DNA from: an uncultured Poribacteria bacterium
GTDB taxonomy: Bacteria; Poribacteria; WGA-4E; PCPOR2b
Direction of reading: 5' to 3'
Assembly: GCA_958296125.1 (NCBI GenBank)
Contig: OY282444.1
Span: 496,001-560,000, forward strand
Length of the DNA stretch: 64,000 bases
Shown: piece after piece, positions 4,159 to 62,924 of the stretch
Layout: each line of letters begins with the position of its first letter
Position numbering within the stretch: position 1 is the stretch's first letter
Made by a program: the position numbers and the translations under genes
Notes under the pieces: generated by a model
Told to the model about the DNA's origin: nothing
What the model saw: the letters and a program-made list of their open reading frames with translations, nothing else
The model's database searches: none

Positions 4159-4177
4159 TGCGTCCACTCTCTTCTTT

Positions 4178-4205
4178 CACAGAGAAAAGACGATTCTTCT
4201 CTGTG
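4178..4205. repeat. Inverted repeat upstream of the secreted-protein gene
   Basis: A perfect 9-base inverted repeat (CACAGAGAA / TTCTCTGTG) with a 10-base loop lies 20 bases upstream of the ATG at 4158. It is followed by CTCGGTGCCTCCGCG. The structure looks like a short repetitive palindrome or a regulatory hairpin. No function can be assigned. Confidence 0.45.
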
Positions 4206-4307
4206 TCCTCGGTGCCTCCGCGCTAAACTGCACCCCGTAACAACGCATTCTGAAATCTAATAGGATAGGACTTACGCAATTTGTGTAATTATGGCATAAT
4301 GTGACTT

Positions 4308-4640: not shown

Positions 4641-4644
4641 GAAC

Positions 4645-33501: not shown

Positions 33502-33745
33502 TGTTCTGACTTTTTTACGGAGGCTATGTAAAAAGAAAATATTCTGTAGGGAAAAACGACGGAGTATGCCTATTACTTTATTTTATCACACCTGATCCAA
33601 ATTGTGTAGCGGTGCTGATTGCCTGTGTCAAATCTGGGAATTAAATGCTCCTACATTCCATGAATTTCTACCTTGCCAATATGCAGCGGATCGTTTATAC
33701 TTACGTGAAAGAACCGTGCCACACTTTATTCGGAAGGAACTCTCA

Positions 33746-36700
33746 ATGACCGATCTCCTCGAATCCCTGAATCCCGTTCAACGCGAAGCGGTACAGCATA
33801 GCGAAGGCCCACTGCTCATCTTGTCAGGTGCGGGCAGCGGCAAAACCCGCGTGATTACGCATCGAATCGCTCACCTCATCCAGCACCACCGCGTTTCTCC
33901 GTTTAATATTCTTGCGGTGACGTTCACAAACAAAGCCGCGGAAGAGATGAGAACCCGCCTCGAAAACCTTATCGGTCAGAGCCAGTTGTGGGTAGCAACC
34001 TTCCACTCGACGTGTGCTCGGATTCTACGCAGAGACATTCACCATCTTGGCTATGACCGTTCGTTCACAATCTACGATACCACAGACCAGCAAACCCTGA
34101 TTAAGGCGATCATCAAGACACTCCAACTTCCCCTGAATAAACCGGGCCCCGTCCTCGGCGAGATCAGTAGAGCCAAGAGCGATTTCGTCTCTCCTGAAGA
34201 GTATGCGAACAAAGCAGTGGGGTTCTTCGAGGAATCCGCCGCACAGATATATCCGATGTACCAAGATTTCCTCCGCGAAAACAACGCCCTCGATTTTGAT
34301 GATCTGATTAAGCTGACAGTCGAGTTGTTTGATGCTAATCCGAATGTATTGGAGTACTATCAGAACAAGTTTCGGTACGTCCTCGTTGATGAATATCAAG
34401 ATACCAATCGTGGTCAGTATCTGCTTGTTAACGCGTTGGCGCAGAAGCATCAGAATATCTGCGTGGTGGGCGACGATGACCAGTGTTTACCTGCGGGAAC
34501 GTTGGTTCAGACCCCCAACGGGACAACTCCGATTGAAGACCTGCGCTGGGAGGATAGTGTCGTTGCAGCGGCCGGTCAAGGAAAAACCCTTACAGCAGAA
34601 GTCATCGGCATCCACCGGAAATGGTATGATGGGAAATTGGTCAAAATCGCGACCCAAAATGGATCGATATTGCGCGCGACACCGAATCATGTCCTTTTCT
34701 CGCGCCTTAGTAACGCGCCGGATCTGCATCATGTTTATTTGATGTTCAGGCGGGCCCGCGGCTATCGCATTGGTAGCTCCAAAGGGACCCGTAGTGATGG
34801 ATTCAAAGACTACCCGCTACCGACGGAAGTTCACCAGCGGTGTGTACAAGAGAAAGCGGATAAAGTATGGATTTTGAAAACCTGCCAAACTCGTTCTGAA
34901 GCACAGATGTGGGAACAGTATTATGCTTTTGAGTATGGCATTCCCACAACTGTTTTCGACGCGGCTGGCCATAACTCCGTGATGAAGCAGAAACACATCA
35001 ATTTCATTTATGAAAACATTGATACGGTGTCAAACGCTAAGCGTCTGATGCGCGACCTCTATCTATTCCACGATTATCCAAGCTATCGTCCGAAAGACAT
35101 TTCAGGCAATAAGTCTCCTGATCAACAGATTGTCCATTTCACAATGTTTGGCGACCAGCGCGTGAGCCAGCGAAGTCCTTGGCATGCACACCGTGTCTCA
35201 CTGAATACGACTGATCGCACATTAGAAAAACAGTTGCAATCACAAGGATATCACACCAGAACGGGGAAGCGAAACATATCGCGGATTGAAAAGATTCGCT
35301 TGGACTACGAAGAAACTCTCAAATTAGCCAACCAAATCGCTCACGCAGCAGGTGATTTAGAAATCCAATCTGGAGCATTTTTGGTTGACAATCGAGAATA
35401 CGATTTTCAGCCGGCGAGTCAAATTCAACCTAAAATGTACTTGGCTACGGAACAAGAGGGCGAACTTGTTGAAGATCTGGTTGAATCGGTCGAATGGGAA
35501 GATTATCAAGGATATGTCTACGACCTAGATGTTGATTGTTTGCATAACTATATTGCAAATTCCATCTGCGTTCATAATTCAATTTACTCATGGCGAGGGG
35601 CAGATATCAACAACATCCTCGATTTCGAGGTGGACTATCCAAATACAAAGGTTTTGCGCTTGGTGCAAAATTACCGTTCAACTAAAAATATCCTCGAAGC
35701 TGCATATCATGTAATCCGTAACAACCAGAAGCGCAAGGAGAAGCAGATCTGGACCGAAAACAGGAGAGGGAGCGCAATCACCCTGCATGAAGCGGCAGAC
35801 GACACCCGTGAGGCGGACTATGTGCTGCGACAGATCAGGGAGTGGCGGGCACGTAGGAGGAAATATGGCGACTGCGTAATCTTTTATCGGATTAACGCCC
35901 AATCCCGTACATTTGAGGATGCACTGCGCGGCGCAAATATTCCGTATCAGATTGTGGGCGGCATCCGATTCTACGAGCGGATGGAGGTCAAAGACATCAT
36001 GGCTTATATGCGGGTGATTGTCAATCCTGCCGACACAGTTAGCATCAAACGTATCATCAATGTGCCGCGCCGAGGGATTGGTGTGGCGACGGTGCAAAAG
36101 ATCGAGGATTTCGCCTCCGAAGAAGGTATCCCCCTATTTGAAGCGATTCAGCGTGCCAGCGAGGTGCCAAGGCTCAACAATGGCGCGAAAAACAAGGTTC
36201 GCGCATTCGCTGAATTGATTGCATCATTTAACCCAAACGATCCGCCGGCACGCACAGCGGAGGATTTAGTTGACCGCACTGGCTATCTTCAAGCTCTAAG
36301 GCGCGAAGGCACGATTGAGGCACAGAGCCGCGAAGAAAACCTCGGTGAGTTAATTGCAGCGGTGGCAGAGTACGAAGAAAGTGATCCAGAACCGACATTG
36401 GCGGGTTTCTTGGAAAAGATTACATTGGTTTCCGATATCGACAGCATGGAGGATAAGAGCGATGTAGTGACGATGATGACACTGCACAGCGCGAAAGGGC
36501 TGGAATTTCCGATTGTCTTTATGGTTGGAATTGAGGAAGGGTTGCTACCACATCAACGTTCTTATGACAGCGAAGCTGAACTTGAGGAGGAACGGAGGCT
36601 ATGTTACGTTGGACTCACGCGTGCACAGGAGCATATCTATCTGACGCATGCCCGTTCACGGCGGTTGTACCGCGACATCGATTATCGCATCCCTTCGCGC

Positions 36701-36982
36701 TTCATTGAGGAGATTCCTCCTGACCTGATTGGTCAGGGACCTACCCATGAATCGCCTCGGCGACCGGTGGTTTCGTCCTACGATCCCGATGAACCCGATT
36801 CTGACGACGAGGTGCCGTTCCATTACGAAGTTGGGGACGTTGTATATCACACGCAGTTTGGAAGAGGAAAGATTCTTGCTATCAATGGGTATGGATTTAA
36901 TATGCGTGTCACGGTGCGGTTTGAACGTGGATCTGAGAAAACCCTCGCTGTGGTTCATGCGCGGTTGCAAAAGATTGAATAG
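33746..36982 (+). CDS. pcrA: PcrA/UvrD DNA helicase containing an intein
   Basis: The 1078-codon precursor holds a 713-residue superfamily 1 helicase and a 365-residue intein. Helicase motifs are in order: GAGSGKT (motif I), VTFTNKAAEEM, DEYQDTN (II), GDDDQ interrupted before SIYSWRGAD (III), TLHSAKGLEFPIV (V) and RRLCYVGLTRAQEHIYL (VI). The C-terminus (HTQFGRGKILAINGYG) is the tudor-like tail of PcrA. The enzyme unwinds DNA in repair and replication restart. Activity requires protein splicing, because the intein breaks motif III. The ATG at 33746 follows AAGGAACT. Confidence 0.93.
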   Translation: MTDLLESLNPVQREAVQHSEGPLLILSGAGSGKTRVITHRIAHLIQHHRVSPFNILAVTFTNKAAEEMRTRLENLIGQSQLWVATFHSTCARILRRDIHHLGYDRSFTIYDTTDQQTLIKAIIKTLQLPLNKPGPVLGEISRAKSDFVSPEEYANKAVGFFEESAAQIYPMYQDFLRENNALDFDDLIKLTVELFDANPNVLEYYQNKFRYVLVDEYQDTNRGQYLLVNALAQKHQNICVVGDDDQCLPAGTLVQTPNGTTPIEDLRWEDSVVAAAGQGKTLTAEVIGIHRKWYDGKLVKIATQNGSILRATPNHVLFSRLSNAPDLHHVYLMFRRARGYRIGSSKGTRSDGFKDYPLPTEVHQRCVQEKADKVWILKTCQTRSEAQMWEQYYAFEYGIPTTVFDAAGHNSVMKQKHINFIYENIDTVSNAKRLMRDLYLFHDYPSYRPKDISGNKSPDQQIVHFTMFGDQRVSQRSPWHAHRVSLNTTDRTLEKQLQSQGYHTRTGKRNISRIEKIRLDYEETLKLANQIAHAAGDLEIQSGAFLVDNREYDFQPASQIQPKMYLATEQEGELVEDLVESVEWEDYQGYVYDLDVDCLHNYIANSICVHNSIYSWRGADINNILDFEVDYPNTKVLRLVQNYRSTKNILEAAYHVIRNNQKRKEKQIWTENRRGSAITLHEAADDTREADYVLRQIREWRARRRKYGDCVIFYRINAQSRTFEDALRGANIPYQIVGGIRFYERMEVKDIMAYMRVIVNPADTVSIKRIINVPRRGIGVATVQKIEDFASEEGIPLFEAIQRASEVPRLNNGAKNKVRAFAELIASFNPNDPPARTAEDLVDRTGYLQALRREGTIEAQSREENLGELIAAVAEYEESDPEPTLAGFLEKITLVSDIDSMEDKSDVVTMMTLHSAKGLEFPIVFMVGIEEGLLPHQRSYDSEAELEEERRLCYVGLTRAQEHIYLTHARSRRLYRDIDYRIPSRFIEEIPPDLIGQGPTHESPRRPVVSSYDPDEPDSDDEVPFHYEVGDVVYHTQFGRGKILAINGYGFNMRVTVRFERGSEKTLAVVHARLQKIE
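34484..35578 (+). mobile_element. Intein in PcrA/UvrD motif III
   Basis: The insertion begins with Cys (CLPAGTLVQTPNGTTPIEDL, block A) directly after GDDDQ. Block B is GSILRATPNHVLFSR. It ends with block F YQGYVYDLDVDCLHNY and block G ANSICVHN, followed by Ser as the first C-extein residue. These residues are all that is needed for splicing: Cys1, a TxxH, a terminal His-Asn and Ser+1. At 365 residues it is too long for a mini-intein. The middle 200 residues (from about VWILKTCQTRSEAQMWEQYY onward, and FGDQRVSQRSPWHAHRVSL) probably derive from a homing endonuclease. I see no intact LAGLIDADG or HNH motif. Confidence 0.93.
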
Positions 36983-48540: not shown

Positions 48541-50289
48541 TTACTCATCACCTATCGGTTTCGCTAGGTTGGCTATCTCCAAAATCCCATCAAGCACTTC
48601 GGATACTTCTGGATCAATCTGATCTGAGGGAACATATTGGACAAGGGTGTGATAATTTGTTTTTCGCATCAGATTCTCCAATCCCAGCTTTTTGAAAAAG
48701 CGATCGAAGAGCCGATCCAGAAAATCATCGCTCACTTTGGTATTCGGGGACCAAGGCGAGCTTTCACCAAGTGTCGCTAGGGCATCTTCAATCTCCGCAA
48801 TCGCTTCTTCCATTGTAGACAGCCATTGATTTGTAAATTGATTAGCAAACAGTGGTCCTGTGCTCTGTCTCTCTCCTTCGACTTCTGCCCATGCCATTAA
48901 CACCTCTTTTTGGCACAGGTAATTCTCAATCTCGCGCCGCTTCCACTTATACTCCTTTAATTCAGGGGTAGTTTTCAGCTCGGGTTCAATCCGATCAAAG
49001 AGACAGAATCCAACCAAATCGGTTTTCGCCTCCCGCAATCCATAAAAATGTTTACGGGCTTCCCGCGGTTGATTTTCAACATAGTGTACAAATGGACGTT
49101 TCAATCTATCTGCTACATCGTGCTGCAGTTTCTCCGCAAACGCTTGTAAAATTGCTAGGTCTGTTGAGCCCTCAAGATAGAGCACCCATCCCTTCTGTTC
49201 TGCCTGATAATACTGCTCAAATCCAATACTTTTAAGCGATTTCAAAAGCTGGCTACCGCGGTCATCAATGCGATGGGGTGCACCGAGAAAGGCAATGACA
49301 ACGTCCCGATCGGCTGCCTCGTTAAGAATAACCTCAGAATGGCTGGCGGCGATGATTTGACTGTCATGTTCCCTAGCAAGTTCGGTGAGCGTTTGATAAA
49401 TCTGCCTTTGCCGAAGAATCTCAAGGTGTGCATCTGGCTCATCCAGCAGAAGGACTGACCCCGGATGTGCCCCAATATATGCGAGCAGAAGTAGCGTTTG
49501 TTGAAGCCCACGTCCTGACGAGGAGAGATCGAGAGAGATCGAGCCAGCCCGATAGCTCATCTCAATCTCCCCGCGTCCAGGAATGTAATTCGGCTCATCA
49601 AGCTGAACGCCGAATAGGTCTTCGATCTGCTGGCAGATTGTTTCCCACGTTTCATTATCTCCGCGCTCCTGCAAAACCTGATAGCAGAGGTTACGAAGGA
49701 CCTCAGCGGTCCGCCCTTCCCCAACACGAACATTGATTGCCCCAGTATCAAGGCGTGTCTCATTCGACGTAAGCCCGGACATCGGTGGCAGGAAAGCAAC
49801 ATCAAGATTTGTGGCCGCTTCAGGAACAGGTATTCGTTTCAACACCTGACCGTCCACTTCCGGTAATCGCAGGGGCCGGCAGTAAAAGGATTCCTGATTG
49901 GCATAATCAAATTCCAAACCACATTCCCACTGCCTGCCAGCAGTAACGCCTTCAACGGTAATATCCATACGGACGTTTTGCGTCTGTTGCTTACCATCAG
50001 TTCTCTGAATATCTCGGATCTGCAAATTTCGCCAGAGCAACCTTGCATTCGGCACAGAGAGGGAGATAAGGTCGCGCCGGTTGACAGCAACGCCCGGTCG
50101 CCTTTCTGCTTTCGGTCTCCCCTTACGGTGCTCGTTCCAACGTTTGAGCCCAATATCCCACAGGGCGAGTGCCTGCAAAGCCGTTGTTTTGCCTGAGTTA
50201 TTCGGTCCAATGAAGACAACGGGATTCCCCAATTCGACTTCTATTTCTCCAAAGCATTTGAAATTGCGACAAATCAATTTCGTCAGCAT
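48541..50289 (-). CDS. OLD-like AAA ATPase with C-terminal TOPRIM-like region
   Basis: This 582-residue protein begins at the ATG at 50289 (GGAGGAG upstream). An ABC/SMC-type ATPase head contains Walker A in FIGPNNSGKTTALQAL, the signature DLSSSGRGLQQTLLLLAY and Walker B in VLLLDEPDAHLEI, with ASHSEVI as switch histidine. After residue 340 follow LYLEGSTDLAILQAF and later GFCLFDRIEP, which fit the TOPRIM/metal-binding part of OLD-family nucleases. Such proteins act as phage or plasmid defence effectors (OLD, GajA, RM-associated ATPases). It is the last gene of a run with type III restriction genes and Rpn nucleases on the same strand. Confidence 0.82.
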   Translation of the reverse strand: MLTKLICRNFKCFGEIEVELGNPVVFIGPNNSGKTTALQALALWDIGLKRWNEHRKGRPKAERRPGVAVNRRDLISLSVPNARLLWRNLQIRDIQRTDGKQQTQNVRMDITVEGVTAGRQWECGLEFDYANQESFYCRPLRLPEVDGQVLKRIPVPEAATNLDVAFLPPMSGLTSNETRLDTGAINVRVGEGRTAEVLRNLCYQVLQERGDNETWETICQQIEDLFGVQLDEPNYIPGRGEIEMSYRAGSISLDLSSSGRGLQQTLLLLAYIGAHPGSVLLLDEPDAHLEILRQRQIYQTLTELAREHDSQIIAASHSEVILNEAADRDVVIAFLGAPHRIDDRGSQLLKSLKSIGFEQYYQAEQKGWVLYLEGSTDLAILQAFAEKLQHDVADRLKRPFVHYVENQPREARKHFYGLREAKTDLVGFCLFDRIEPELKTTPELKEYKWKRREIENYLCQKEVLMAWAEVEGERQSTGPLFANQFTNQWLSTMEEAIAEIEDALATLGESSPWSPNTKVSDDFLDRLFDRFFKKLGLENLMRKTNYHTLVQYVPSDQIDPEVSEVLDGILEIANLAKPIGDE

Positions 50290-50339
50290 TTCTGCTCCTC
50301 CAAGAACGATAGGCTCATATAAAAAGAGAGTCAAACAGA

Positions 50340-50363
50340 GCAACCACAGGGGTTGCCCCTACA
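50340..50363. repeat. Short palindromic repeat, copy A
   Basis: GCAACCACAGGGGTTGC followed by CCCTACAG resembles the element at 59915-59940. It lies between the ATPase and restriction genes and is likely a dispersed repetitive palindrome. Confidence 0.45.
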
Positions 50364-50395: not shown

Positions 50396-52939
50396 TTAGC
50401 TATGCGAATATTGTTCGCCCAACCGTGCGGCTATCTCCGAGAATTCGTGCTCGCTGAACACCAATTGAAAGATGCTTTGGGGTGCCTCACGCAGCTTTAC
50501 CGTGCCGACAGCATTGAATGTCCCCTCAAGTGCTTGCAACACCTTCCGCTTGTACTCGGTGTCAGGGTTGCCGAGCAGGTGTTCGCCTTTTGTCTCGAAA
50601 ATTAACAGGCGCGTTTCGCTCGCCATCGCAACGAAGTCGGGATAAATGCGTTCCTGTTTCCAACCTTGCAGGTAATACTCGCCCTGTTGACGCACCGCGA
50701 CTCGATGCCACCATTGCACTGCCTTCTGCTCATCAAGATAACAAGCAAATTTCTTTTCCAATTCGCTATCGAAGTGCTGCTCAAATACCGATTCAAACAG
50801 GCTAAGCTGTAAGGGCTCGCCATACCTTTTTACGAGTTGCCTATCGTTGGAGTGAACCTGTATGTCATAGTTACGTACCATACGAAAATTCGGCTGTCCG
50901 GTCTCTAAGTCAAAACGGATTTTACCCCTCTTCAGTTTTTCGTGGAAAACCTGCTCCGCCTGATTTTCCACTTCATTCTTGACATGCTCCCGTAACTGAT
51001 GTGCGAGATAAGCACGTCGGTCGTAGATATCCGCTTCAGTTTCGCCTTTCCGCTTCAGGAGCTCGCCCAATTGCTCTGCAATGCGGGCGGCATGCCATGG
51101 ATTGGGTAGAACATCGGACAGATGGCGTGTGAAGTCCGAAACTTTGACCGTTTTGTCAATATACACCCCTCGCTCGGCATGGTAGATAGGCGGTGTCTCC
51201 TCCATATCAACCGTTGCGGATTGCCATCTTGGGCCGTCGGATGCAGATGCTTTCGGGTCAGGCGGTCCGATTTTCGACCAATCTATATGCGGGAGGATAT
51301 GAGATTGATAATCGAGTTGCACCCAATGGTCGCCGTTTTTATGGAGCACCATCGGCAGAAAGATATCCTGCCCCTGAAATCGATCGCGGCGATGCACGGT
51401 CCGCTGCTGCCCCTCGCTCTCTTGCTGTAAGGTGCCCATCACCTCGTCGTCCAAGCCTGTTAGCCCCTCCGCTTCCAAGCCCCTTTTGACCTGTTCGACG
51501 ACGGTGCCCACTTCGACGTTATTGCAATAGACATAACATTGATCTAGTAATTCTCTATCGGTGCGTTGCGCGCCCGGTTGCCGCATCACCCGCCCCAATA
51601 GTTGCGTTATGGCTCGTTGTGCCTGCGTATTGTCTAACATCACCAACAGATAAGCAAACGGGCAATCCCAACCTTCCATCAGTGCAGATTTTGTGATGAT
51701 CCATCGCACCTGCGAAAATTCGGAGAGTAGATTTTCTCTGCCGAGTTCGTCGTTTTCGGCAGATTTAACGCGAATCGCATCGGAAGGCACGTTTAAGTGT
51801 TGTGTGAGATATTCCCGCACATCCTCTGCGTGAATATACCCGCTATCCTTCTGATTGTTACCCGTCCGCTCAACGCGCACAACGGCGATAGGACGGATAT
51901 AACGCCCCGTGCTGTGCTCAAGGTCCGTCGCTTCGGCATTTAGCCGCTCTAGTTCCTCAACCGCCTGTCCCAGCGTTAACCCCCACTCGGCGTTTGGGAA
52001 TGATGTTACCTGTACCGGCAGTTTGATCATCTCCTCCTTTTTCAGGTCGGGCCCTTCGATATCGACAAGCAGATTGCTAATACCGTGGTTCGGGGTCGCA
52101 GAGAGTTCGATAACCAGCTGGGGGTTCAGACGGTTGATGGAACGGGCAAATTCTTCGTTCGCCTCCCGCTTTTTCGATCCATACGCTTTATGTGCCTCGT
52201 CAAGAACAACGACGGGACGCAGTATCTTGAGCACATTAAAGAGACTGTGTTTGATTGTTCCTCCTTCAACATTGCACTCCAAATCCGGGTAGGTTTCCAT
52301 CATACGGCCGTCACTGAGGAGATCATCACCGTCCGGGAAAAAACTGGGATAACGTCCTGCATCCTTAAACATACGCAGAAACTCTTTCCCCTTTTGTCGA
52401 TTCGCCGCCGGTAACATCAGCAACATAACGCACAAGTAATTAACGATATCATCCCTATTGAACGGATCATCCTTTTCCAACATTTTGACGCGGCCCGCGC
52501 TTGCCCGTTCCAACATTTGACGATACGGATGCTCCCGATTCCACAGGGCGGCTTTGGTTTGCGCGTAGATAGCCTTGCTCGGCACAATCCACAATGTCAG
52601 CCCGGTCTGTCGATTGAGGCGTTCTAGAGCGGCGGCGGCGAGCAAGGTTTTTCCCCCACCTGTGGGCACCTTGAAACAGATATGTGGAATCGGGCGGTCT
52701 GCGCCGTCGGTGCGGTTGATGTATTCGCCGGCAGTTGCCGCCACACCATCATATTCCTTGAGTCTATTCCACGCTGTTTTAGGATAATTACGCGCCTCAT
52801 TGAGGATTGCACTATCAACCCCTGTCTTTCTCAACGCCTTAACCGCAGTGTCTGATTCATTCTGTGCGTCTTTGAGTGCTTCCAACCAACAGCTAAAAGC
52901 GTCGAGTGCACGGAGTTGATACGTTTTCAATTCCATCAT
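50396..52939 (-). CDS. Type III restriction enzyme, Res subunit (helicase-nuclease)
   Basis: This 847-residue superfamily 2 helicase has Walker A in FKVPTGGGKTLLAAAAL, a DEAH box in VLDEAHKAYG, SATPNHG (motif III) and LLGRVMRQPG (motif VI). The C-terminal endonuclease shows the PD-(D/E)XK core in IYPDFVAMASETRLLIFETK. It partners with the Mod subunit encoded 12 bases upstream to cut foreign DNA at sites lacking modification, after ATP-driven translocation or sliding. The length is slightly shorter than EcoP15I Res. Lying between Mod and the OLD-like ATPase, it forms the centre of a defence island. Confidence 0.9.
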   Translation of the reverse strand: MMELKTYQLRALDAFSCWLEALKDAQNESDTAVKALRKTGVDSAILNEARNYPKTAWNRLKEYDGVAATAGEYINRTDGADRPIPHICFKVPTGGGKTLLAAAALERLNRQTGLTLWIVPSKAIYAQTKAALWNREHPYRQMLERASAGRVKMLEKDDPFNRDDIVNYLCVMLLMLPAANRQKGKEFLRMFKDAGRYPSFFPDGDDLLSDGRMMETYPDLECNVEGGTIKHSLFNVLKILRPVVVLDEAHKAYGSKKREANEEFARSINRLNPQLVIELSATPNHGISNLLVDIEGPDLKKEEMIKLPVQVTSFPNAEWGLTLGQAVEELERLNAEATDLEHSTGRYIRPIAVVRVERTGNNQKDSGYIHAEDVREYLTQHLNVPSDAIRVKSAENDELGRENLLSEFSQVRWIITKSALMEGWDCPFAYLLVMLDNTQAQRAITQLLGRVMRQPGAQRTDRELLDQCYVYCNNVEVGTVVEQVKRGLEAEGLTGLDDEVMGTLQQESEGQQRTVHRRDRFQGQDIFLPMVLHKNGDHWVQLDYQSHILPHIDWSKIGPPDPKASASDGPRWQSATVDMEETPPIYHAERGVYIDKTVKVSDFTRHLSDVLPNPWHAARIAEQLGELLKRKGETEADIYDRRAYLAHQLREHVKNEVENQAEQVFHEKLKRGKIRFDLETGQPNFRMVRNYDIQVHSNDRQLVKRYGEPLQLSLFESVFEQHFDSELEKKFACYLDEQKAVQWWHRVAVRQQGEYYLQGWKQERIYPDFVAMASETRLLIFETKGEHLLGNPDTEYKRKVLQALEGTFNAVGTVKLREAPQSIFQLVFSEHEFSEIAARLGEQYSHS

Positions 52940-52951
52940 GTCGCCACCTCT

Positions 52952-54598
52952 TTACCTTTCGTGCAGTGCATGGGGGAGTTGACAGAATGTAATGCCCATT
53001 CCCGTGAGTTCTCGCTGGCCTATGTATTTGCCCGGGGCGTAAACGATTGCCTTACCCCCGTTCTGACGGTTGGCTTTGTGGATGCGTTGTGCTCGTTCAA
53101 GGTTAAGCATCACCTCGTTGCACCGCAAGTACTCAAGGTCGGGTTGGTAGAGCAGGTAGTAGTCAATTTTGTCGGCACTGTGAAAGAGACCGTCACCGTT
53201 TTTCGATTTCAACGCATCAGTCCCGACAGAAACCCCAGAGGCAATATACAGTAGATGGGCGGCGAGTGATTCGTAAGAGGGGAGGGCCTCCCCGGTGAGC
53301 ATCCCCTCCATTTCAATCGGCTTACCCAATGTGCCGTAGGTGAAGGAGCCGCCCAAGCCTTCGCGCAATGAAGCATCGCGGGCCTTGGGAATACCGTTAA
53401 TGACACGGCGGATCCGCTCGGCGGTGATGGTGTCGGCGTAATCTTCGCATTCAATGAGGATAAATTTCCGATTGCCGCCATCTTCCTTGTTCAAAGCGAG
53501 TACAGCGTGTGCTGTCGTGCCGGAGCCTGCGAATGAGTCTAGGACGATGTCATCCGATGAGAGATTGGCAGTTTGGAATACCCTCTGAATCAGCTTAGTG
53601 CCTTTGGGATTGTTGAATACACCTTTTCCCATTATCGAAGAAAGTTCTTCGTTCGCTTGATGGGTACTTCCCACATCTTGATAAGTCCACAATGATCCTA
53701 CGGTTTTGCCATCCTTCACCTCGCTTAGATAAGTCTTCTTGTTAGGTTGGGATTTTCCGCTCTTACCAAAGTAAAGTTGGCCATCATCGTATAGATCCAT
53801 GAGCTTCGCTTGGGTGTACCTCGGAAATCTTCCTTCCGGGCAATGCCACGTAACACCGTTAGGGAATTTAAGCGAATACCTATCTCTATCCCTGCCACTT
53901 TTTGCATGTAACGGAGTTGCTTTCCATGCTCCCTTCGGATCTTCATCGGGATTCTTGTATGTCTTGTCCATTTCTGCTGTCCTTGGAAGAACGCCGATTT
54001 GACACGTATCTAAATTCTTCGCATAGGAGAGGATGTTCTCGTGCTGATACGAGACGGTTTTGGAATCGTTAGCCAATGTGTACTTGGACCACCAAGTAAA
54101 ATTGGCGACTATGTTCTCCGCCCCAAAAATCTCATCCATCAGCATCCGTAGGTGGTGTTCTTCATTATCATCAATGGAGATAAAAATTATACCATTGTCC
54201 GCAAGTAATTCTTTTAGTAGGTGCAACCGTGGCCACATCATACAGAGCCATTTGTCGTGTCGCTCAAGGTCTTCGTTATCAACGGGACTGTGCTCTGCGA
54301 GCCACTGCTGCATAAGTGAACTGTTGACGTTGTCGTTATAACACCATCCTTCGTTGCCGGTGTTGTAGGGTGGATCGATGTAGATGCACTTAACACGGTT
54401 CGCATAGCGGGGCAGCAAGGCTTTGAGGGCGTGTAGGTTATCTCCGTGGATGATGAGGTTATCATCGGCACCCCCCGCTTTCCCCCCGCAGGCAGGGGGC
54501 TTGCAGGAGCGGCTTTCGTCCGTTTCAATCGGCCGGTAGGGAACGGTGAGATGGTGGGCGTAGATATGTTGTTTCCCTTTGAAGTCGAGTGTGGGCAT
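52952..54598 (-). CDS. Type III DNA methyltransferase, Mod subunit
   Basis: This 548-residue beta-class N6-adenine methyltransferase has DPPY in CIYIDPPYNTGNEGW (about residue 94) and later the AdoMet-binding FxGxG in VLDSFAGSGTTAHAVLALN. Motif IV before motif I defines the beta group. The central variable part (about 160-330) should hold target recognition. Mod methylates host DNA and gives specificity to the restriction complex. The ATG at 54598 follows AAAGGA. It starts 42 bases after the end of the truncated Rpn gene. Confidence 0.92.
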   Translation of the reverse strand: MPTLDFKGKQHIYAHHLTVPYRPIETDESRSCKPPACGGKAGGADDNLIIHGDNLHALKALLPRYANRVKCIYIDPPYNTGNEGWCYNDNVNSSLMQQWLAEHSPVDNEDLERHDKWLCMMWPRLHLLKELLADNGIIFISIDDNEEHHLRMLMDEIFGAENIVANFTWWSKYTLANDSKTVSYQHENILSYAKNLDTCQIGVLPRTAEMDKTYKNPDEDPKGAWKATPLHAKSGRDRDRYSLKFPNGVTWHCPEGRFPRYTQAKLMDLYDDGQLYFGKSGKSQPNKKTYLSEVKDGKTVGSLWTYQDVGSTHQANEELSSIMGKGVFNNPKGTKLIQRVFQTANLSSDDIVLDSFAGSGTTAHAVLALNKEDGGNRKFILIECEDYADTITAERIRRVINGIPKARDASLREGLGGSFTYGTLGKPIEMEGMLTGEALPSYESLAAHLLYIASGVSVGTDALKSKNGDGLFHSADKIDYYLLYQPDLEYLRCNEVMLNLERAQRIHKANRQNGGKAIVYAPGKYIGQRELTGMGITFCQLPHALHER

Positions 54599-54640: not shown

Positions 54641-54949
54641 TTACTCCTCCATTGAGGAAGGCTCGTCTTTCAACTGCAAGAGTTGTGCTTCCGGAAGGTT
54701 TGTGATTTCAGAAATGAGTGTTATCTCCATTCCCTTGGCAAGCATTGCCTTTGCAGCTTCAATCCGGCCTTCGAGCAAACCTTCCTGTTTGCCCTCAATT
54801 CTGCCTTTCTGCTCACCTTCGAGCAGTCCTTCCTGCTTACCCTCAAGCAGCCCTTCTTGCTTGCCCTCAAGCAGTCCTTCCTGCTTGCCTTCAAGCAGCC
54901 CGTTTTGAAAAATCTGCTGCCTTTCTCGCTCTAACGCAGCGACTAACAT
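54641..54949 (-). CDS. Stand-alone Rpn C-terminal protein (fifth, truncated copy; candidate antitoxin)
   Basis: This 102-residue protein is homologous only to the C-terminal third of the neighbouring Rpn nucleases. The ATG at 54949 follows a perfect Shine-Dalgarno AGGAGGTGA (54955-54963). An alternative TTG at 54988 lacks one. It contains LVAALERERQQIFQNG, five 8-residue units of the LLEGKQEG type (54779-54898) and the conserved tail AKAMLAKGMEITLISEITNL. The catalytic nuclease domain is gone. The 5' end was joined to leader sequence (bases 55067-55090) at a short CCG microhomology. It equals the internal frame of the full copies and resembles the intragenic RpnS antitoxin reported for E. coli. 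The function is inferred. Confidence 0.6.
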   Translation of the reverse strand: MLVAALERERQQIFQNGLLEGKQEGLLEGKQEGLLEGKQEGLLEGEQKGRIEGKQEGLLEGRIEAAKAMLAKGMEITLISEITNLPEAQLLQLKDEPSSMEE

Positions 54950-55093
54950 CGTCTTCACCTCCTCTTCGTTGCGGTAAATGTATTCCAACGACTGATAATC
55001 GCCAGATTCAATCCGTCCGTGGAACGCTAACTGCCTAAACCAGTTTAAGAACAGACTTACCGCGATTGTCGAGAGCGGTGATTAACATTGTTT

Positions 55094-56068
55094 TCACTCC
55101 TTCGCTGAGGAAAGCGCGGCTTTCAACTGCAAGAGTTGTGCTTCCGGAAGGTTTGTGATTTCAGAAATGAGTGTCATCTCCATTCCCTTGGCAAACATTG
55201 CCTTTGCAGCTTCAATCCGGCCTTCGAGCAAACCTTCCTGCTTGCCCTCAAGCAGCCCTTCCTGTTTGCCCTCGAGCAGTCCTTCCTGCTTACCCTCAAG
55301 CAGCCCGTTTTGAAAAATCTGCTGCCTTTCTCGCTCTAACGCAGCGACTAACATCGTCTTCACCTCCTCTTCGTTGCGGTAAATGTATTCTAACGACTGA
55401 TAATCGCCAGATTCAATTCGTCCGTGGAATGCTAACTGCCTAAACCAGTTTAAGAACAGACTCACCGCCTGTTTGTCCGCCTCCACAGAAAACAGATTCA
55501 GCAGCTCTACCTCCAGCAAATCTAAATCATAATGGGATTCTGCCAAAAATAACGTCGATACAATGTTTCGGATTGTTAACAACGCATCCTGACTGTATTG
55601 GTTCTCCGCAATCAGAAAATACTGAAAATCTAATGCAAATGTACCGAGGGGCGGGTGCTGTTCAATCAACCTAGAAAGATTCACAGGGGCCGTCCAAGGT
55701 GCTTCTCCGTTATACAGCACGATTGGAAAAACCGCCGGCAATTTTTTGACACCTCTGTTATTGACGAGAAAATCCATGTAAAAGTTGGTAATGTAGTTCA
55801 GCACCCGTAACGCCATGAACGGGTCAACGGTGGATTGAAACTCAATGAGAATATAGATATAGACCTCACGGTCATGAAACTGGATTTTGTAGATTAAGTC
55901 ACTCTCGGTTTCTTTGTAATGTTCGGAGATAAACGATTTATCAAGGGGTTCACAACTGGAGAAATCGAGAGCATGAACCCACTCTTGATTGACAAAGGTC
56001 TCAAGCAGTTGTCGAAATATGGTCCGATTTGAGAATAGTTTCTTATATCCGCTGTCGTGGATGTTCAT
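55094..56068 (-). CDS. Rpn-family PD-(D/E)XK recombination-promoting nuclease, copy 1
   Basis: This protein of about 324 residues starts at ATG 56068 (AAAAGGTG upstream, TGATG overlap with a leader frame). The domain at residues 1-200 begins MNIHDSGYKKLFSNRTIFRQ and carries the nuclease core ETESDLIYKIQFHDREVYIY followed by ILIEFQST (E-x-Q in place of E-x-K). The family is known from E. coli RpnA and PF-type DUF4351 transposase-like proteins; it cleaves DNA and is toxic or anti-phage. The C-terminus has three 8-residue repeats. An internal AGGAGGTGA (55360-55368) precedes ATG 55354, which would give an 86-residue C-terminal protein. This copy differs at one point in the tail (AKAMFAKG). Confidence 0.85.
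   Translation of the reverse strand: MNIHDSGYKKLFSNRTIFRQLLETFVNQEWVHALDFSSCEPLDKSFISEHYKETESDLIYKIQFHDREVYIYILIEFQSTVDPFMALRVLNYITNFYMDFLVNNRGVKKLPAVFPIVLYNGEAPWTAPVNLSRLIEQHPPLGTFALDFQYFLIAENQYSQDALLTIRNIVSTLFLAESHYDLDLLEVELLNLFSVEADKQAVSLFLNWFRQLAFHGRIESGDYQSLEYIYRNEEEVKTMLVAALERERQQIFQNGLLEGKQEGLLEGKQEGLLEGKQEGLLEGRIEAAKAMFAKGMEMTLISEITNLPEAQLLQLKAALSSAKE
55354..55368 (-). promoter_or_regulatory. Internal ribosome-binding site and start in Rpn copy 1
   Basis: AGGAGGTGA lies at 55360-55368, with ATG at 55354-55352 in frame with the nuclease gene. The internal frame spans 55094-55354. Confidence 0.55.
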
Positions 56069-56248
56069 CACTGACACCTTTTGAGCCAATAGGGTAAACG
56101 GATTCTTTCCAGTGTTGAAGAAAGTTCGTCCAGTCGGCGTATAACGTGAAGGCGCATGTTAACAATTCGTTTGGTTGGATTTGCGCTATATCATGTCTTT
56201 TGCTCCTTTCTGTTCCGAGATTGTCGAGAGCGGTGCCTAACATTGTTT

Positions 56249-57247
56249 TCACTCCTTCACCGAGGAAAGCGCGGCTTTCAACTGCAAGAGTTGTGCTTCC
56301 GGAAGATGGGTGATTTCAGAAATGAGTCTCATCTCCATTCCCTTGGCAAGCATGGCCTTTGCAGCTTCAATCCGGCCTTCGAGCAAACCTTCCTGTTTGC
56401 CCTCGACTCTGCCTTTCTGCTCACCTTCGAGCAGCCCTTTCTGCTCACCTTCGAGCAGCCCTTCCTGCTTGCCCTCAAGCAGCCCGTTTTGAAAAATCTG
56501 CTGCCTTTCTCGCTCTAACGCAGCGACTAACATCGTCTTCACCTCCTCTTCGTTGCGGTAAATGTATTCTAACGACTGATAATCGCCAGATTCAATTCGT
56601 CCGTGGAATGCTAACTGCCTAAACCAGTTTAAAAACAGACTCACCGCCTGTTTGTCCGCCTCCACAGAAAACAGATTCAGTAGTTCTACCTCCAGCAAAT
56701 CTAAATCATAATGGGATTCTGCCAAAAACAACGTCGATACAATGTTTCGGATTGTTAACAACGCCTCCTGACCGTATTGATTCTCCGCAATCAGAAAATA
56801 CTGAAAATCTAATGCAAATGTACCGAGGGGCGGGTGCTGTTCAATCAACCTAGAAAGATTCACAGGGGCCGTCCAAGGTGCTTCTCCGTTATACAGCACG
56901 ATTGGGAAAACCGCCGGCAGTCTGTTGACGTTTCTGTTATTGACGAGAAAATCCATGTAAAAGTTGGTAATGTAGTTCAGCACCCGTAACGCCATGAACG
57001 GGTCAACGGTGGATTGAAACTCAATGAGAATATAGATATAGACCTCACGGTCATGAAACTGGATTTTGTAGATTAAGTCACTCTCGGTTTCTTTGTAGTG
57101 TTCGGAGATAAACGATTTATCAAGGGGTTCACAACTGGAGAAGTCGAGAGCATGGACCCACTCTTGATTGACAAAGGTCTCAAGCAGTTGCCGAAATATG
57201 GTCCGATTTGAGAATAGTTTCTTATATCCGCTGTCGTGGATGTTCAT
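56249..57247 (-). CDS. Rpn-family PD-(D/E)XK nuclease, copy 2
   Basis: This copy of about 332 residues starts at ATG 57247. Here a 3-base change in the leader removes the upstream TTG used as possible start in the other copies, which supports ATG as the true initiator of the family. The nuclease core is unchanged from copy 1 (YIYILIEFQST). The C-terminus carries four 8-residue repeats (LLEGKQEG, two LLEGEQKG, RVEGKQEG) and ends GMEMRLISEITHLPEAQ. Internal AGGAGGTGA (56539-56547) precedes ATG 56533, giving a 94-residue product. It is followed by a small frame with AAGGAG at 56252-56257. Confidence 0.85.
   Translation of the reverse strand: MNIHDSGYKKLFSNRTIFRQLLETFVNQEWVHALDFSSCEPLDKSFISEHYKETESDLIYKIQFHDREVYIYILIEFQSTVDPFMALRVLNYITNFYMDFLVNNRNVNRLPAVFPIVLYNGEAPWTAPVNLSRLIEQHPPLGTFALDFQYFLIAENQYGQEALLTIRNIVSTLFLAESHYDLDLLEVELLNLFSVEADKQAVSLFLNWFRQLAFHGRIESGDYQSLEYIYRNEEEVKTMLVAALERERQQIFQNGLLEGKQEGLLEGEQKGLLEGEQKGRVEGKQEGLLEGRIEAAKAMLAKGMEMRLISEITHLPEAQLLQLKAALSSVKE
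56533..56547 (-). promoter_or_regulatory. Internal ribosome-binding site and start in Rpn copy 2
   Basis: AGGAGGTGA lies at 56539-56547, with ATG at 56533-56531 in frame with the nuclease gene. The internal frame spans 56249-56533. Confidence 0.55.
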
Positions 57248-57424
57248 CACTGACACCTTTTGAAATAGGGTAAACGGATTCTTTCCGGTGTTGAAGAAAG
57301 TTTGTCCAGTCGGCGTATAACGTGAAGGCGCATGTTAACAATTCGTTCGGTTGGATTTGCGCTATATCATGTCTTTTGCTCCTTTCTGTTCCGAGATTGT
57401 CGAGAGCGGTGCCTAACATTGTTT

Positions 57425-58423
57425 TCACTCCTTCACCGAGGAAAGCGCGGCTTTCAACTGCAAGAGTTGTGCTTCCGGAAGATGGGTGATTTCAGAAATG
57501 AGTCTCATCTCCATTCCCTTGGCAAGCATGGCCTTTGCAGCTTCAATCCGGCCTTCGAGCAAACCTTCCTGTTTGCCCTCGACTCTGCCTTTCTGCTCCC
57601 CTTCGAGCAGCCCTTCCTGCTTGCCCTCAAGCAGTCCTTCTTGCTTGCCCTCAAGCAGCCCGTTTTGAAAAATCTGCTGCCTTTCTCGCTCTAACGCAGC
57701 GACTAACATCGTCTTCACCTCCTCTTCGTTGCGGTAAATGTATTCTAACGACTGATAATCGCCAGATTCAATCCGTCCGTGGAATGCTAACTGCCTAAAC
57801 CAGTTTAAAAACAGACTTACCGCCTGTTTGTCCGCCTCCACAGAAAACAGATTCAGCAGCTCTACCTCCAGCAAATCTAAATCATAATGGGATTCTGCCA
57901 AAAATAACGTTGATACAATGTTTCGGATTGTTAACAACGCATCCTGACTGTATTGATTCTCCGCAATCAGAAAATACTGAAAATCTAATGCAAATGTACC
58001 GCGGGGCGGGTGCTGTTCAATCAACCTAGAAAGATTCACAGGGGCCGTCCAAGGTGCTTCTCCATTATACAGCACGATTGGGAAAACCGCCGGCAGTCTG
58101 TTGACGTTTCTGTTATTGACGAGAAAATCCATGTAAAAGTTGGTAATGTAGTTCAGCACCCGTAACGCCATGAACGGGTCAACGGTGGATTGAAACTCAA
58201 TGAGAATATAGATATAGACCTCACGGTCATGAAACTGGATTTTGTAGATTAAATCACTCTCGGTTTCTTTGTAATGTTCGGAGATAAACGATTTATCAAG
58301 GGGTTCACAACTGGAGAAATCGAGAGCATGAACCCATTCTTGGTTGACAAAGGTCTCAAGCAGTTCCCGAAATATGGTCCGATTTGAGAATAGTTTCTTA
58401 TATCCACTGTCGTGGATGTTCAT
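57425..58423 (-). CDS. Rpn-family PD-(D/E)XK nuclease, copy 3
   Basis: This copy of about 332 residues starts at ATG 58423. It differs from the others at few places (FRELLETF for FRQLLETF; HPPRGTFALDFQYF for HPPLG). Four 8-residue repeats (two LLEGKQEG, LLEGEQKG, RVEGKQEG) are present. The tail is identical to that of copy 2 (GMEMRLISEITHLPEAQ), while part of its N-terminal half matches copy 1 better, indicating gene conversion between units. Internal AGGAGGTGA (57715-57723) precedes ATG 57709, giving a 94-residue product. Confidence 0.85.
   Translation of the reverse strand: MNIHDSGYKKLFSNRTIFRELLETFVNQEWVHALDFSSCEPLDKSFISEHYKETESDLIYKIQFHDREVYIYILIEFQSTVDPFMALRVLNYITNFYMDFLVNNRNVNRLPAVFPIVLYNGEAPWTAPVNLSRLIEQHPPRGTFALDFQYFLIAENQYSQDALLTIRNIVSTLFLAESHYDLDLLEVELLNLFSVEADKQAVSLFLNWFRQLAFHGRIESGDYQSLEYIYRNEEEVKTMLVAALERERQQIFQNGLLEGKQEGLLEGKQEGLLEGEQKGRVEGKQEGLLEGRIEAAKAMLAKGMEMRLISEITHLPEAQLLQLKAALSSVKE
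57709..57723 (-). promoter_or_regulatory. Internal ribosome-binding site and start in Rpn copy 3
   Basis: AGGAGGTGA lies at 57715-57723, with ATG at 57709-57707 in frame with the nuclease gene. The internal frame spans 57425-57709. Confidence 0.55.
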
Positions 58424-58603
58424 CACTGACACCTTTTGAGCCAATAGGGTAAACGGATTCTTTCCGGTGTTGAAGAAAGTTTGTCCAGTCGGCGTATAAC
58501 GTGAAGGCGCATGTTAACAATTCGTTCGGTTGGATTTGCGCTGTATCATGTCTTTTGCTCCTTTTTGTTCCGAGATTGTCGAGAGCGGTGACTAACATTG
58601 TTT

Positions 58604-59650
58604 TCACTCCTTCACCGAGGAAAGCGCGGCTTTCAACTGCAAGAGTTGTGCTTCCGGAAGGTTTGTGATTTCAGAAATGAGTGTCATCTCCATTCCCTTA
58701 GCAAGCATTGCCTTTGCAGCTTCAATCCGGCCTTCGAGCAAACCTTCCTGTTTGCCCTCAATTCTGCCTTTCTGCTCACCTTCGAGCAGCCCTTTCTGCT
58801 CACCTTCGAGCAGTCCTTCCTGCTTGCCCTCAAGCAGCCCTTCCTGCTTGCCCTCGAGCAGTCCTTCCTGCTTACCCTCAAGCAGCCCGTTTTGAAAAAT
58901 CTGCTGCCTTTCTCGCTCTAACGCAGCGACTAACATCGTCTTCACCTCCTCTTCGTTGCGGTAAATGTATTCCAACGACTGATAATCGCCAGATTCAATC
59001 CGTCCGTGGAATGCTAACTGCCTAAACCAGTTTAAGAACAGACTCACCGCCTGTTTGTCCGCCTCCACAGAAAACAGATTCAGCAGCTCTACCTCCAGCA
59101 AATCTAAATCATAATGGGATTCTGCCAAAAATAACGTCGATACAATGTTTCGGATTGTTAACAACGCATCCTGACTGTATTGGTTCTCCGCAATCAGAAA
59201 ATACTGAAAATCTAATGCAAATGTACCGAGGGGCGGGTGCTGTTCAATCAACCTAGAAAGATTCACAGGGGCCGTCCAAGGTGCTTCTCCGTTATACAGC
59301 ACGATTGGGAAAACCGCCGGCAATTTTTTGACACCTTTGTTATTGACGAGAAAATCCATGTAAAAGTTGGTAATGTAGTTCAGCACCCGTAACGCCATGA
59401 ACGGGTCAACGGTGGATTGAAACTCAATGAGAATATAGATATAGACCTCACGGTCATGAAACTGGATTTTGTAGATTAAGTCACTCTCGGTTTCTTTGTA
59501 ATGTTCGGAGATAAACGATTTATCAAGGGGTTCACAACTGGAGAAATCGAGAGCATGAACCCATTCTTGGTTGACAAAGGTCTCAAGCAGTTGCCGAAAT
59601 ATGGTCCGATTTGAGAATAGTTTCTTATATCCGCTGTCGTGGATGTTCAT
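58604..59650 (-). CDS. Rpn-family PD-(D/E)XK nuclease, copy 4 (first in transcription order)
   Basis: This is the longest copy, about 348 residues, starting at ATG 59650. It has six 8-residue repeats (three LLEGKQEG, two LLEGEQKG, RIEGKQEG), the largest number in the array. Its tail (GMEMTLISEITNLPEAQ) is like copy 1. Internal AGGAGGTGA (58942-58950) precedes ATG 58936, giving a 110-residue product. Upstream of 59790 the sequence is unique, so the promoter of the array should lie between there and 60296. The leader frame in front of this copy lacks the AAGGAG-ATG start seen in the other units. Confidence 0.85.
   Translation of the reverse strand: MNIHDSGYKKLFSNRTIFRQLLETFVNQEWVHALDFSSCEPLDKSFISEHYKETESDLIYKIQFHDREVYIYILIEFQSTVDPFMALRVLNYITNFYMDFLVNNKGVKKLPAVFPIVLYNGEAPWTAPVNLSRLIEQHPPLGTFALDFQYFLIAENQYSQDALLTIRNIVSTLFLAESHYDLDLLEVELLNLFSVEADKQAVSLFLNWFRQLAFHGRIESGDYQSLEYIYRNEEEVKTMLVAALERERQQIFQNGLLEGKQEGLLEGKQEGLLEGKQEGLLEGEQKGLLEGEQKGRIEGKQEGLLEGRIEAAKAMLAKGMEMTLISEITNLPEAQLLQLKAALSSVKE
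58936..58950 (-). promoter_or_regulatory. Internal ribosome-binding site and start in Rpn copy 4
   Basis: AGGAGGTGA lies at 58942-58950, with ATG at 58936-58934 in frame with the nuclease gene. The internal frame spans 58604-58936. Confidence 0.55.
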
Positions 59651-59790
59651 CACTGACACCTTTTGAGCCAATAGGGTAAACGGATTCTTTCCGGTGTTGA
59701 AGAAAGTTCGTCCAGTCGGCGTATAACGTGAAGGCGCATGTTAACAATTCGTTCGGTTGGATTTGCGCTGTATCATGTCTTTTGCTCCTT

Positions 59791-60296: not shown

Positions 60297-61967
60297 CTAC
60301 GGTTCAATTAGCAATTGAACCGGCAGTTTTCCTTGAGCCTCCTGTGCCCCGACAATCACCTCAACGGCTGCGGACACAGAGGTGTCGTGGATATCGTAAG
60401 CGGCAAGGGATGCGGAGATACCGGGGCAGCCTCGGAGCGTGTAAGGCGATCCAAGGGCAATGACAATGACGGGGGTTTTAGTTTCTAAGCTAATCTGCTG
60501 GATGAGCCCTGCTTGTTCATGATTCGTGATTCCAGCGATAACCACATCGGCGTTTTCCGCCTGCAGGATTAGTTGCGGCAGGATACCCTCCACCCCCGGC
60601 TTCTCTGGGATTCTCGCTTCAACCGTGTTCGGGTGATGTATTTTGAAGCTATCAAATAAGGTCGGTGATTCACTCAAGATCAGAACGAAGGCTTCCGACT
60701 TTAATTTTAAGGGCAGGATGTTATTTCGATTCCCCACTACTGTAATTGCACGCGATGCAATTGTTTGAGCAAGTTGCTGATGTGCCTCTCTCCCGACGGT
60801 GGTTCCTACCGTATCGGGATCAACGAAACGCCGATCAAACGCCGCTCTCTTACTTTTCAGGATACGCTTGACGGATTGATCCAACCGGGCTTGAGAGATG
60901 CGTCCACTTTTCACCGCGGAGAGCAGTGTGTCAAAGACTTCAATTTGCTTTGTGGGTGTCCAGAGCACAAGCACGATGTCCGCGCCAGCCTCAATTGCCA
61001 TGACCGCAGCTTCGCCCGATCGGTAGCGACCATCGATCGCTTTCATCTCCATATCGTCGGTAATGAGCAAACCATCAAAACCGAGTTCCTTTCGTAAGAG
61101 ATCCGTTAAGATAGTCGGCGAGAGCGTGGCGGGTCGATCGGTATCAAGGGCGGGATAGATAATATGCGCTGTCATGATTGCAGCGACATCGGCATCAATC
61201 GCTGCCCGAAAGGGTTGCAACTCAAGGGCGTGGATGCGCTCCAGATCATGGTTCACGGTTGGCAGATCGAAGTGTGAGTCAACGGTGGTGTCTCCGTGTC
61301 CGGGGAAATGCTTCGCGGTTGCTAGCACACCGTTGTGTTGCAACCCCTGGATATAGGCGACTCCCAAACGGGAAACAAGCCCCGGCGATTCACCGAAGGA
61401 GCGGCGACCGATAATGGGATTCTGCGGATTATTGTTGACATCCATGACCGGCGCGAAGTTAAGGTTGACCCCCACCGCGGCGAGTTCAACGGCGGTAATC
61501 TCTCCTGCACGCTCTGCCAATTCAGTCGAATCGGTCGCGCCCAACGCCATATTGCCGGGCAGCACCGTCGCGCCCTCTCTCAAGCGAATGACCCAACCGC
61601 CCTCTTGATCTATCCCAATGAACAACGGAATTTGATGCGCCGTTGTTCTCGTCAATCGCTGGAGCTCGTTTGTTAATTCCGCGGTCTGTTTCGGGGATTG
61701 GATATTCCGACTAAAGAGGACGACCCCACCGACAAACCGTTCGCGGATATGGGTTTCGATGGCTTCGTTGGCTTGTGTCCCCTCGAAGCCGACCATGATG
61801 AGCTGTCCGACTTTTTCCTCTATTGTCATTTTGGTTATCATTGTGTCAATTTCCGGATCGGTGAGGGCAGAAATTGGGGCCGAGACCGCCCCGATCAGAA
61901 GTGCGGCAAGTAGGTATGAGAGATAGTGACATAGTGCACTGTGTGTCGTGCGTAACAGGGATTTCAA
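60297..61967 (-). CDS. GH3-family beta-N-acetylhexosaminidase (NagZ/YbbD-like), secreted
   Basis: This glycoside hydrolase family 3 protein of about 556 residues cleaves N-acetylglucosamine from peptidoglycan or chitin-type oligomers. Diagnostic is the NagZ loop KHFPGHGDTTVDSHFDLP with the catalytic His/Asp pair, and the nucleophile aspartate in LLITDDMEMKAIDGRYR. IDQEGGWVIRL and PVMDVNNNPQNPIIGRRSFG are also typical. A second domain after residue 350 resembles that of Bacillus YbbD (NagZ). A hydrophobic signal (HYLSYLLAALLIGAVSAPIS) lies at the start. The start codon is uncertain; TTG 61967 is my choice, because the longer frame is a fusion with RraA debris. Confidence 0.85.
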   Translation of the reverse strand: MKSLLRTTHSALCHYLSYLLAALLIGAVSAPISALTDPEIDTMITKMTIEEKVGQLIMVGFEGTQANEAIETHIRERFVGGVVLFSRNIQSPKQTAELTNELQRLTRTTAHQIPLFIGIDQEGGWVIRLREGATVLPGNMALGATDSTELAERAGEITAVELAAVGVNLNFAPVMDVNNNPQNPIIGRRSFGESPGLVSRLGVAYIQGLQHNGVLATAKHFPGHGDTTVDSHFDLPTVNHDLERIHALELQPFRAAIDADVAAIMTAHIIYPALDTDRPATLSPTILTDLLRKELGFDGLLITDDMEMKAIDGRYRSGEAAVMAIEAGADIVLVLWTPTKQIEVFDTLLSAVKSGRISQARLDQSVKRILKSKRAAFDRRFVDPDTVGTTVGREAHQQLAQTIASRAITVVGNRNNILPLKLKSEAFVLILSESPTLFDSFKIHHPNTVEARIPEKPGVEGILPQLILQAENADVVIAGITNHEQAGLIQQISLETKTPVIVIALGSPYTLRGCPGISASLAAYDIHDTSVSAAVEVIVGAQEAQGKLPVQLLIEP

Positions 61968-62302: not shown

Positions 62303-62423
62303 GAGTCACCTCCTCGTAAGTAGACTGTCAGGCAAATGAGGAGGGCACTGACAGTTAGTAGTCGCGCAATTCATTGCACATCGGACGGGCAATAAATTAA
62401 GTACAAACACTGAAATCTGCTCA

Positions 62424-62840
62424 CTACGGATTCGGCGGTGAGGTACAGATGAGTACCTCCATCGTCTCATTTCCTGTGTTCTCGATGCCGTGTTCGCACC
62501 ATGGCGGCAGATGGATAAAGGTGCCTTCCTGCACATCGATTTTCTCGCCGGCGAGCGTCATAACGCCGCGCCCACGTATAATGACATAGCACTCTTCGGT
62601 GTGGTGGCTGCCCGGCTCTAGCATAACGTGAGGGGGGATATAAAACATCACCAGCCCCAGATTCTGGGCGGGTGCTTTCGGGTTGGCAGGATGGACGATA
62701 CGCACACCAATCCCTTCGCAATCGGGATATTTCACCGGCACACCATCCTGCGCCTTGACAACATTGGGGAGTACCTTTTCTCTCGGCTTGGGAATCGGGG
62801 GTTCGCCTTCGTAACCTTTGAACATTGTAATTTTTGCCAT
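62424..62840 (-). CDS. Small cupin-domain protein
   Basis: This 138-residue single-domain cupin has the two conserved motifs. The first reads LEPGSHHTEECYVIIRGRG (metal-binding His, His, Glu). The second reads HLPPWCEHGIENTGNETM, whose last ligand histidine is in WCEHGI. Such proteins bind a metal and may be isomerases, dioxygenases or sugar-binding regulators; nothing here narrows it down. It ends about 120 bases before the RraA-GH3 region on the same strand. Confidence 0.82.
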   Translation of the reverse strand: MAKITMFKGYEGEPPIPKPREKVLPNVVKAQDGVPVKYPDCEGIGVRIVHPANPKAPAQNLGLVMFYIPPHVMLEPGSHHTEECYVIIRGRGVMTLAGEKIDVQEGTFIHLPPWCEHGIENTGNETMEVLICTSPPNP

Positions 62841-62924
62841 TGTTGTTACCTCACTTATGTTAATTCACTAGTTCATTGAACTGATAAACTGTATACATTA
62901 GTAGTAGAACGTGATGCGAAAGGT

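Follow-up and report, generated by a model that had tools for sequence, protein, structure and literature searches.

A probable stand-alone rpnS gene left by deletion at the end of a five-copy rpn array in an uncultured Poribacteria bacterium

The rpn array and its neighbourhood

The window analysed here is the whole 64,000-nucleotide stretch at positions 496,001 to 560,000 of contig OY282444.1 (assembly GCA_958296125.1) from an uncultured Poribacteria bacterium. Its minus strand carries, at 54641-59671, five gene copies from one family, arranged in tandem in a single orientation, and the five near-identical 300-nt repeats of this array are not due to chance. Copies 1-4 are complete frames of 331-355 aa within 55094-59671; using four-residue repeats (tetrads) counted between the head and the AKAM tail, copy 1 (58604-59671) has 14 tetrads, copies 2 (57425-58444) and 3 (56249-57256) have 10 each and copy 4 (55094-56089) has 8. 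PF04754 (Transposase_31/YhgA-like) was matched by all four in a whole-genome scan, with E values of 1e-29 to 1e-30 and a best stretch of residues 10-184/185 in the three copies scanned separately (55094, 57425 and 58604), which also matched NCBIfam TIGR01784 (“Rpn family recombination-promoting nuclease”). The PD-(D/E)XK residues are presumably D64, E83 and Q85 in copy 1 numbering; D64 and Q85 are invariant among 13 aligned full-length proteins and E83 is found in 12, the exception being L066, which has K. Profile matches of the Rpn proteins to FliH and Yae1 were ascribed to the EG-rich repeats, and a weak PADLOC match to a “putative invertase” to repeat composition.

According to Zhong et al. 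2023 (preprint, PMC10327210), Rpn genes encode two products: RpnL, a nuclease that is toxic, and RpnS, a small antitoxin with four-residue repeats that corresponds to the C-terminal part and is made from an internal start. Copies 1-4 resemble this intragenic RpnL/RpnS system (PF04754, TIGR01784) in having a nuclease domain and an internal RpnS start, whereas the fifth copy is without the toxin part. Frames of 68-69 aa bridge successive copies (56043-56252, 57222-57428 and 58398-58607, minus strand), beginning at a Shine-Dalgarno (SD)-ATG that overlaps the upstream stop and with first codons resembling the RpnS start; the same SD-ATG motif begins a separate RpnS at loci L016 and L017. The internal-start-like motif behind the stop codons may or may not derive from a downstream RpnS that was lost.

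As rpn genes in general have been placed in defence clusters (PMC10327210), so the present array, a type III mod/res pair and an AAA/OLD-like ATPase form one. The methyltransferase gene (mod, 52952-54598) starts ~43 nt past the fifth copy, and the restriction subunit gene (res, 50396-52939) and the ATPase (48541-50343) lie, like mod, on the minus strand. Elsewhere in the window, a UvrD/PcrA-like helicase frame on the plus strand (33602-36982) contains a candidate intein between GDDDQ and SIYSWRG, which we take to be helicase motifs.

The truncated fifth copy and its internal start

The fifth copy (54641-55063, minus strand) keeps only the C-terminal part of an Rpn gene. The profile scan found no PF04754 match, and thus no nuclease domain, in this copy, and its RpnS frame, open over 102 aa from the internal ATG (54641-54949, minus strand), gave a C-terminal match to TIGR01784; the first-pass annotation, which had seen here a copy reduced to the small C-terminal protein, was correct on this point. 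Upstream of the internal start, ~38 codons of residual coding sequence (54965-55063, minus strand) have neither an ATG nor the full-length start, and an in-frame TTG at 54986-54988 would give a 115-aa frame. The deletion junction at 55063/55064 joins AACAGACTTACCGC, which ends on the coding side at 55063 (ACCGC), to the intergenic GATTGTCGAGAG, which begins at 55064, exactly as first described. In copies 2-4 AACAGACTTACCGC and GATTGTCGAGAG lie 747-750 nt apart (55468/56219, 56647/57395 and 57823/58574), and the deletion is therefore of ~750 nt. The CCG earlier proposed as microhomology is common to both sides of the junction; however, because the adjoining base differs, being C in the coding and A in the intergenic sequence, clean microhomology is without support. 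On the far side of the junction, the 3' flank of copy 4 (55064-55093, minus strand) has an SD-like GGAGTGAAAACAATGTTAATCACC overlapping the copy 4 stop, and the fifth-copy internal ATG at 54949 stands 145 nt past the end of copy 4, on the same strand and downstream of a full-length rpn.

The internal ATG (54949-54947) is preceded by a near-perfect SD with its spacer, GAGGAGGTGAAGACG (54950-54964, minus strand), and all five copies share the same 80 nt around this ATG. Pairing with the anti-SD was -18.2 kcal/mol at the internal start, as compared with -8.3 kcal/mol at the full-length start of copies 1-4, and the internal SD gave -18.2 kcal/mol in nine of the 14 full-length genes of the group and -13.7 in the other five. 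In a control in which the six codons preceding the internal start were redrawn synonymously, the mean was ~-10, with -18.2 reached in 1.2-2.8% and -13.7 in 13.8-20.4% of draws. The strong internal start said to be retained in this copy is thus real as a sequence feature. Counted from the internal Met, the four-residue repeats begin at residue 18, which falls within the published range of 8-20 residues; they number 8-14 among the five copies, the published number being likewise variable (PMC10327210). An AlphaFold model of RpnS, of low mean confidence (pLDDT 62.7), had helices at residues 50-71, 76-83 and 87-95, with block means of 86-88 over residues 61-90 and values under ~50 in the repeats; RpnS has been described as a dimer and as a three-helix bundle with a long first helix (PMC10327210). 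A sequence search of the PDB gave no relative for either protein (for RpnS, none below E 0.1), and the AlphaFold model of full-length copy 1 (mean pLDDT 49.5) was not used.

A promoter-like element, TTGAAT-18-TAGAAT, is present ~35 nt before the internal start of copies 2-4 (55387-55416, 56566-56595 and 57742-57771, minus strand), whereas copies 1 and 5 have TGGAAT as the last hexamer; E. coli rpn genes have been reported to contain internal promoters. The promoter scan returned 11 sites where 6.2 were expected, most of them in these repeats, and was not used as evidence.

Since SD pairing and repeat position both fit RpnS, the fifth copy is by sequence a stand-alone RpnS gene. Separately encoded RpnS has been published for E. 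coli (rpnE-ypaA and rpnC), where a stand-alone copy is expressed (PMC10327210), so that the fifth copy belongs to a known kind. As in ypaA and the second rpnC-S, the small C-terminal Rpn protein has a gene to itself immediately behind a full-length rpn, with its own SD and ATG and variable four-residue repeats. It differs from these in having arisen by deletion within a five-gene tandem array, whereas in E. coli one C-terminal part was copied behind one gene, in the persistence of ~38 codons of upstream remnant and in being known from sequence alone. Other toxin-antitoxin families include orphan antitoxins, which have no toxin of their own, but the fifth copy belongs to an unrelated sequence family.

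Alternatively, the fragment could have been kept for restriction-gene expression, as a short, strongly translated frame ending in an SD-ATG overlap ~43 nt before mod. A stop-overlapping GGAGGAGTAAGAACGATG is indeed found at the fragment end, followed by mod at 54598; however, a similar stop-overlap motif occurs behind most copies elsewhere without mod, and at the orthologous locus in genome G001 (L061) no mod was found downstream of the orphan RpnS up to the contig end, the frame that follows it there (~4610-4930) being presumably an MNT-like nucleotidyltransferase. We consider this explanation very improbable.

Nuclease-less copies in the genus: selection or decay

The tally within the genus covered 23 Rpn units in six genomes (G000-G005). 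Nuclease and RpnS are both open in 12 of them, including L066 with its K for E83; the nuclease is deleted and RpnS open in four, namely the fifth copy, L058, L061 and L063 (in frame in the last). Two units have a separate downstream RpnS (L016 and L017), two a stop in the nuclease with RpnS open (L064 and L071), one is an orphan RpnS with a frameshift (L062), one has an open nuclease and a frameshifted RpnS (L059), and one, at a contig end, was unscorable (L065); the tally does not include L091 (G009), a piece with the nuclease only, or the two broken pieces found in L060. Both separate RpnS units are in the window's own genome and overlap the stop of an intact Rpn (L016, Rpn 3776-4831 and RpnS 4828-5133; L017, Rpn 6098-5112 and RpnS 5115-4825).

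Comparison with sister genomes confirmed that similar solitary fragments exist, L058, L061 and L063 all carrying an open RpnS after deletion. Specifically, L061 (G001) has its right flank in common with the window (60304-61922 and 62411-62858). Besides the open RpnS, an N-terminal stub of 73 residues is left at L061, so that the orthologous locus lost its nuclease through a different breakpoint. L058 (G002), L063 (G001) and L066 (G003) are one locus, which has been deleted in two different ways and, in L066, carries the E-to-K change, and a genome search of G002 found no nuclease-domain match. On this genomic comparison, nuclease loss leaving RpnS open arose separately elsewhere in the genus. 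L066 (3790-4767) is a full-length Rpn with RpnS intact, and its nuclease is probably inactive, as K replaces the conserved E83. The nuclease part of L064 showed 8 nonsynonymous to 16 synonymous changes on its branch; the stop is therefore recent, and L064 was rejected as an old dead toxin. In a wider set of 61 loci, of which 43 were parsed and 18 left out, RpnS sits within a frame of <150 aa, away from a contig end, in four of the 43 (L161, L162, L210 and L216), which suggests further nuclease-less copies.

The first-pass annotation had interpreted the fifth copy as an antitoxin kept after loss of its toxin, with simple decay as the alternative. For branch counts, changes at 52 non-repeat codons were polarised against three outgroups. 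Of those placed on the fifth-copy branch, 2 are nonsynonymous and 0 synonymous; its remaining differences fall to the other copy or could not be polarised. This dN/dS-type comparison of the C-terminal part thus gave no sign that the fifth copy is under purifying selection, although the counts are compatible with it, and neutral drift has therefore to be reckoned with. The other orphans' branches, which may include time preceding the deletion, carried 1 synonymous and 1 nonsynonymous change (L058) and 6 of each, with a further 1 synonymous and 4 nonsynonymous unassigned (L061). Compared with the other copies, the fifth copy differs at 9-13 of 114 nt in its tail and at 1-4 of 108 nt in its upstream remnant.

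These counts are in keeping with a neutral relic, that is, a recently truncated rpn pseudogene in which an open C-terminal frame and the internal start have survived by chance. In simulations with 4-7 random changes the frame stayed open in 67-79% of cases; with so few changes an open frame is unremarkable, and the argument that ORF integrity proves use was rejected. The frameshifted orphan L062, at another locus in a sister species, indicates that orphans do decay. Moreover, the nuclease is >2x the length of RpnS, and breakage of RpnS next to an active nuclease would do harm; RpnS-sparing lesions are thus expected without any use of the orphan. Only the nuclease is broken in six units of the genus (the fifth copy, L058, L061, L063, L064 and L071) and only RpnS in one (L059); because the nuclease offers more sequence to hit and is toxic when alone, no claim was drawn from this ratio, and the proposal that lesions spare RpnS beyond chance was dropped. 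Evidence against a relic comes from sister species, in which three other deletion units, at two loci of which one is orthologous to the array, also retain an open RpnS. The opening 51 nt of the RpnS frame, which show no difference across the five copies, and the expression of the published E. coli stand-alone copy (PMC10327210) likewise speak against it. We regard the relic as a close rival to the stand-alone rpnS gene, at somewhat below an even chance. Of the original interpretation, the part that holds is that the C-terminal part is an antitoxin in kind and that stand-alone RpnS exist; its retention by selection was not borne out by the branch counts and is not claimed here. The fifth copy may plausibly serve as an antitoxin, but the one specificity feature open to comparison, repeat number, speaks against a simple antitoxin for its neighbours.

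Repeat number and the role of an uncoupled RpnS

The fifth copy has 12 tetrads and so differs in number from every one of its neighbours (14, 10, 10 and 8 in copies 1-4). For E. coli RpnC, a figure legend of the preprint states that RpnC-L was blocked only by RpnC-S with an equal repeat number (Fig. 4D, PMC10327210). By analogy with this rule, which was shown for RpnC, the fifth-copy protein is predicted to be a poor inhibitor of its neighbours, and hence a poor antitoxin for them. The separate RpnS units of the same genome are also mismatched with their long copies (14 tetrads in the long copy and 10 in the separate one at L016; 9 and 3 at L017), and in the haplotypes examined ypaA is like the fifth copy in having a repeat number unequal to its neighbour's. 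The E. coli sample comprised K-12 and 12 of the 60 records listed from 5371 matches; of these 13 rpnE loci, L125 (interrupted beside IS2) was excluded and L127 was without an RpnE start by pattern, leaving 11 pairs. Among these listed records, repeat number matched between RpnE and YpaA in 0 of 11 scorable pairs, which fell into seven distinct combinations of extra tetrads (RpnE, YpaA): (0,1), (5,1), (5,2), (1,4), (8,4), (5,0) and (6,2). Random pairing of the seven gave no match 63% of the time; tracking is therefore absent and avoidance unsupported, and the idea that E. coli pairs avoid matching was rejected. No mention of this mismatch was found in the sections of the preprint consulted (PMC10327210), and no other RpnS paper was listed among the literature searched.

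The mismatches raise the question of whether stand-alone RpnS could be free specificity variants rather than antitoxins for their neighbours, with a repeat number drifting or selected away from that of RpnL, which act on other Rpn alleles or tune mixed complexes; we judge this unlikely as a general account. For the fifth copy itself, action on Rpn alleles with a repeat number other than the neighbours', such as an incoming Rpn or one at another locus, appears quite unlikely. It would agree with the mismatch to all neighbours here, at L016, at L017 and in the 11 E. coli pairs, with the RpnS of L016 being as long as those of copies 2 and 3 and that of L017 equalling the long copy of L018 in length (all in the window's genome), and with the K-12 YpaA repeat number being that of RpnE in strain N39. 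However, the 63% of random pairings without a match means that mismatch may be plain fast turnover, and the 12 tetrads of the fifth copy equal those of none of the seven close full-length copies in its genome.

Taken together, we think it fairly probable that 54641-54949 is a stand-alone rpnS gene produced by a ~750-nt deletion in the last of five tandem rpn genes and encoding, if anything, a surplus antitoxin-type subunit. The deletion would have removed the 5' leader and nuclease domain, ending ~115 nt before the internal start and leaving the internal ribosome site and the 102-aa frame intact. The fifth copy may share a transcript with copies 1-4 and the type III restriction genes and be translated from its internal ATG, and its helical RpnS could dimerise and bind the C-terminal domains of RpnL; if it acts at all, it would most likely do so as a surplus antitoxin-type subunit.

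The locus extends stand-alone RpnS from E. coli to a distant lineage and adds a genus in which nuclease loss with RpnS left open recurs, including at the orthologous locus. A repeat mismatch between stand-alone RpnS and the adjacent RpnL is seen in both lineages and is the most testable lead, as it makes possible a direct test of whether, and against which partners, uncoupled RpnS proteins still act as antitoxins. If they are free specificity variants, stand-alone RpnS would protect against toxins that arrive from outside or belong to sister loci, or tune the assembly of mixed complexes.
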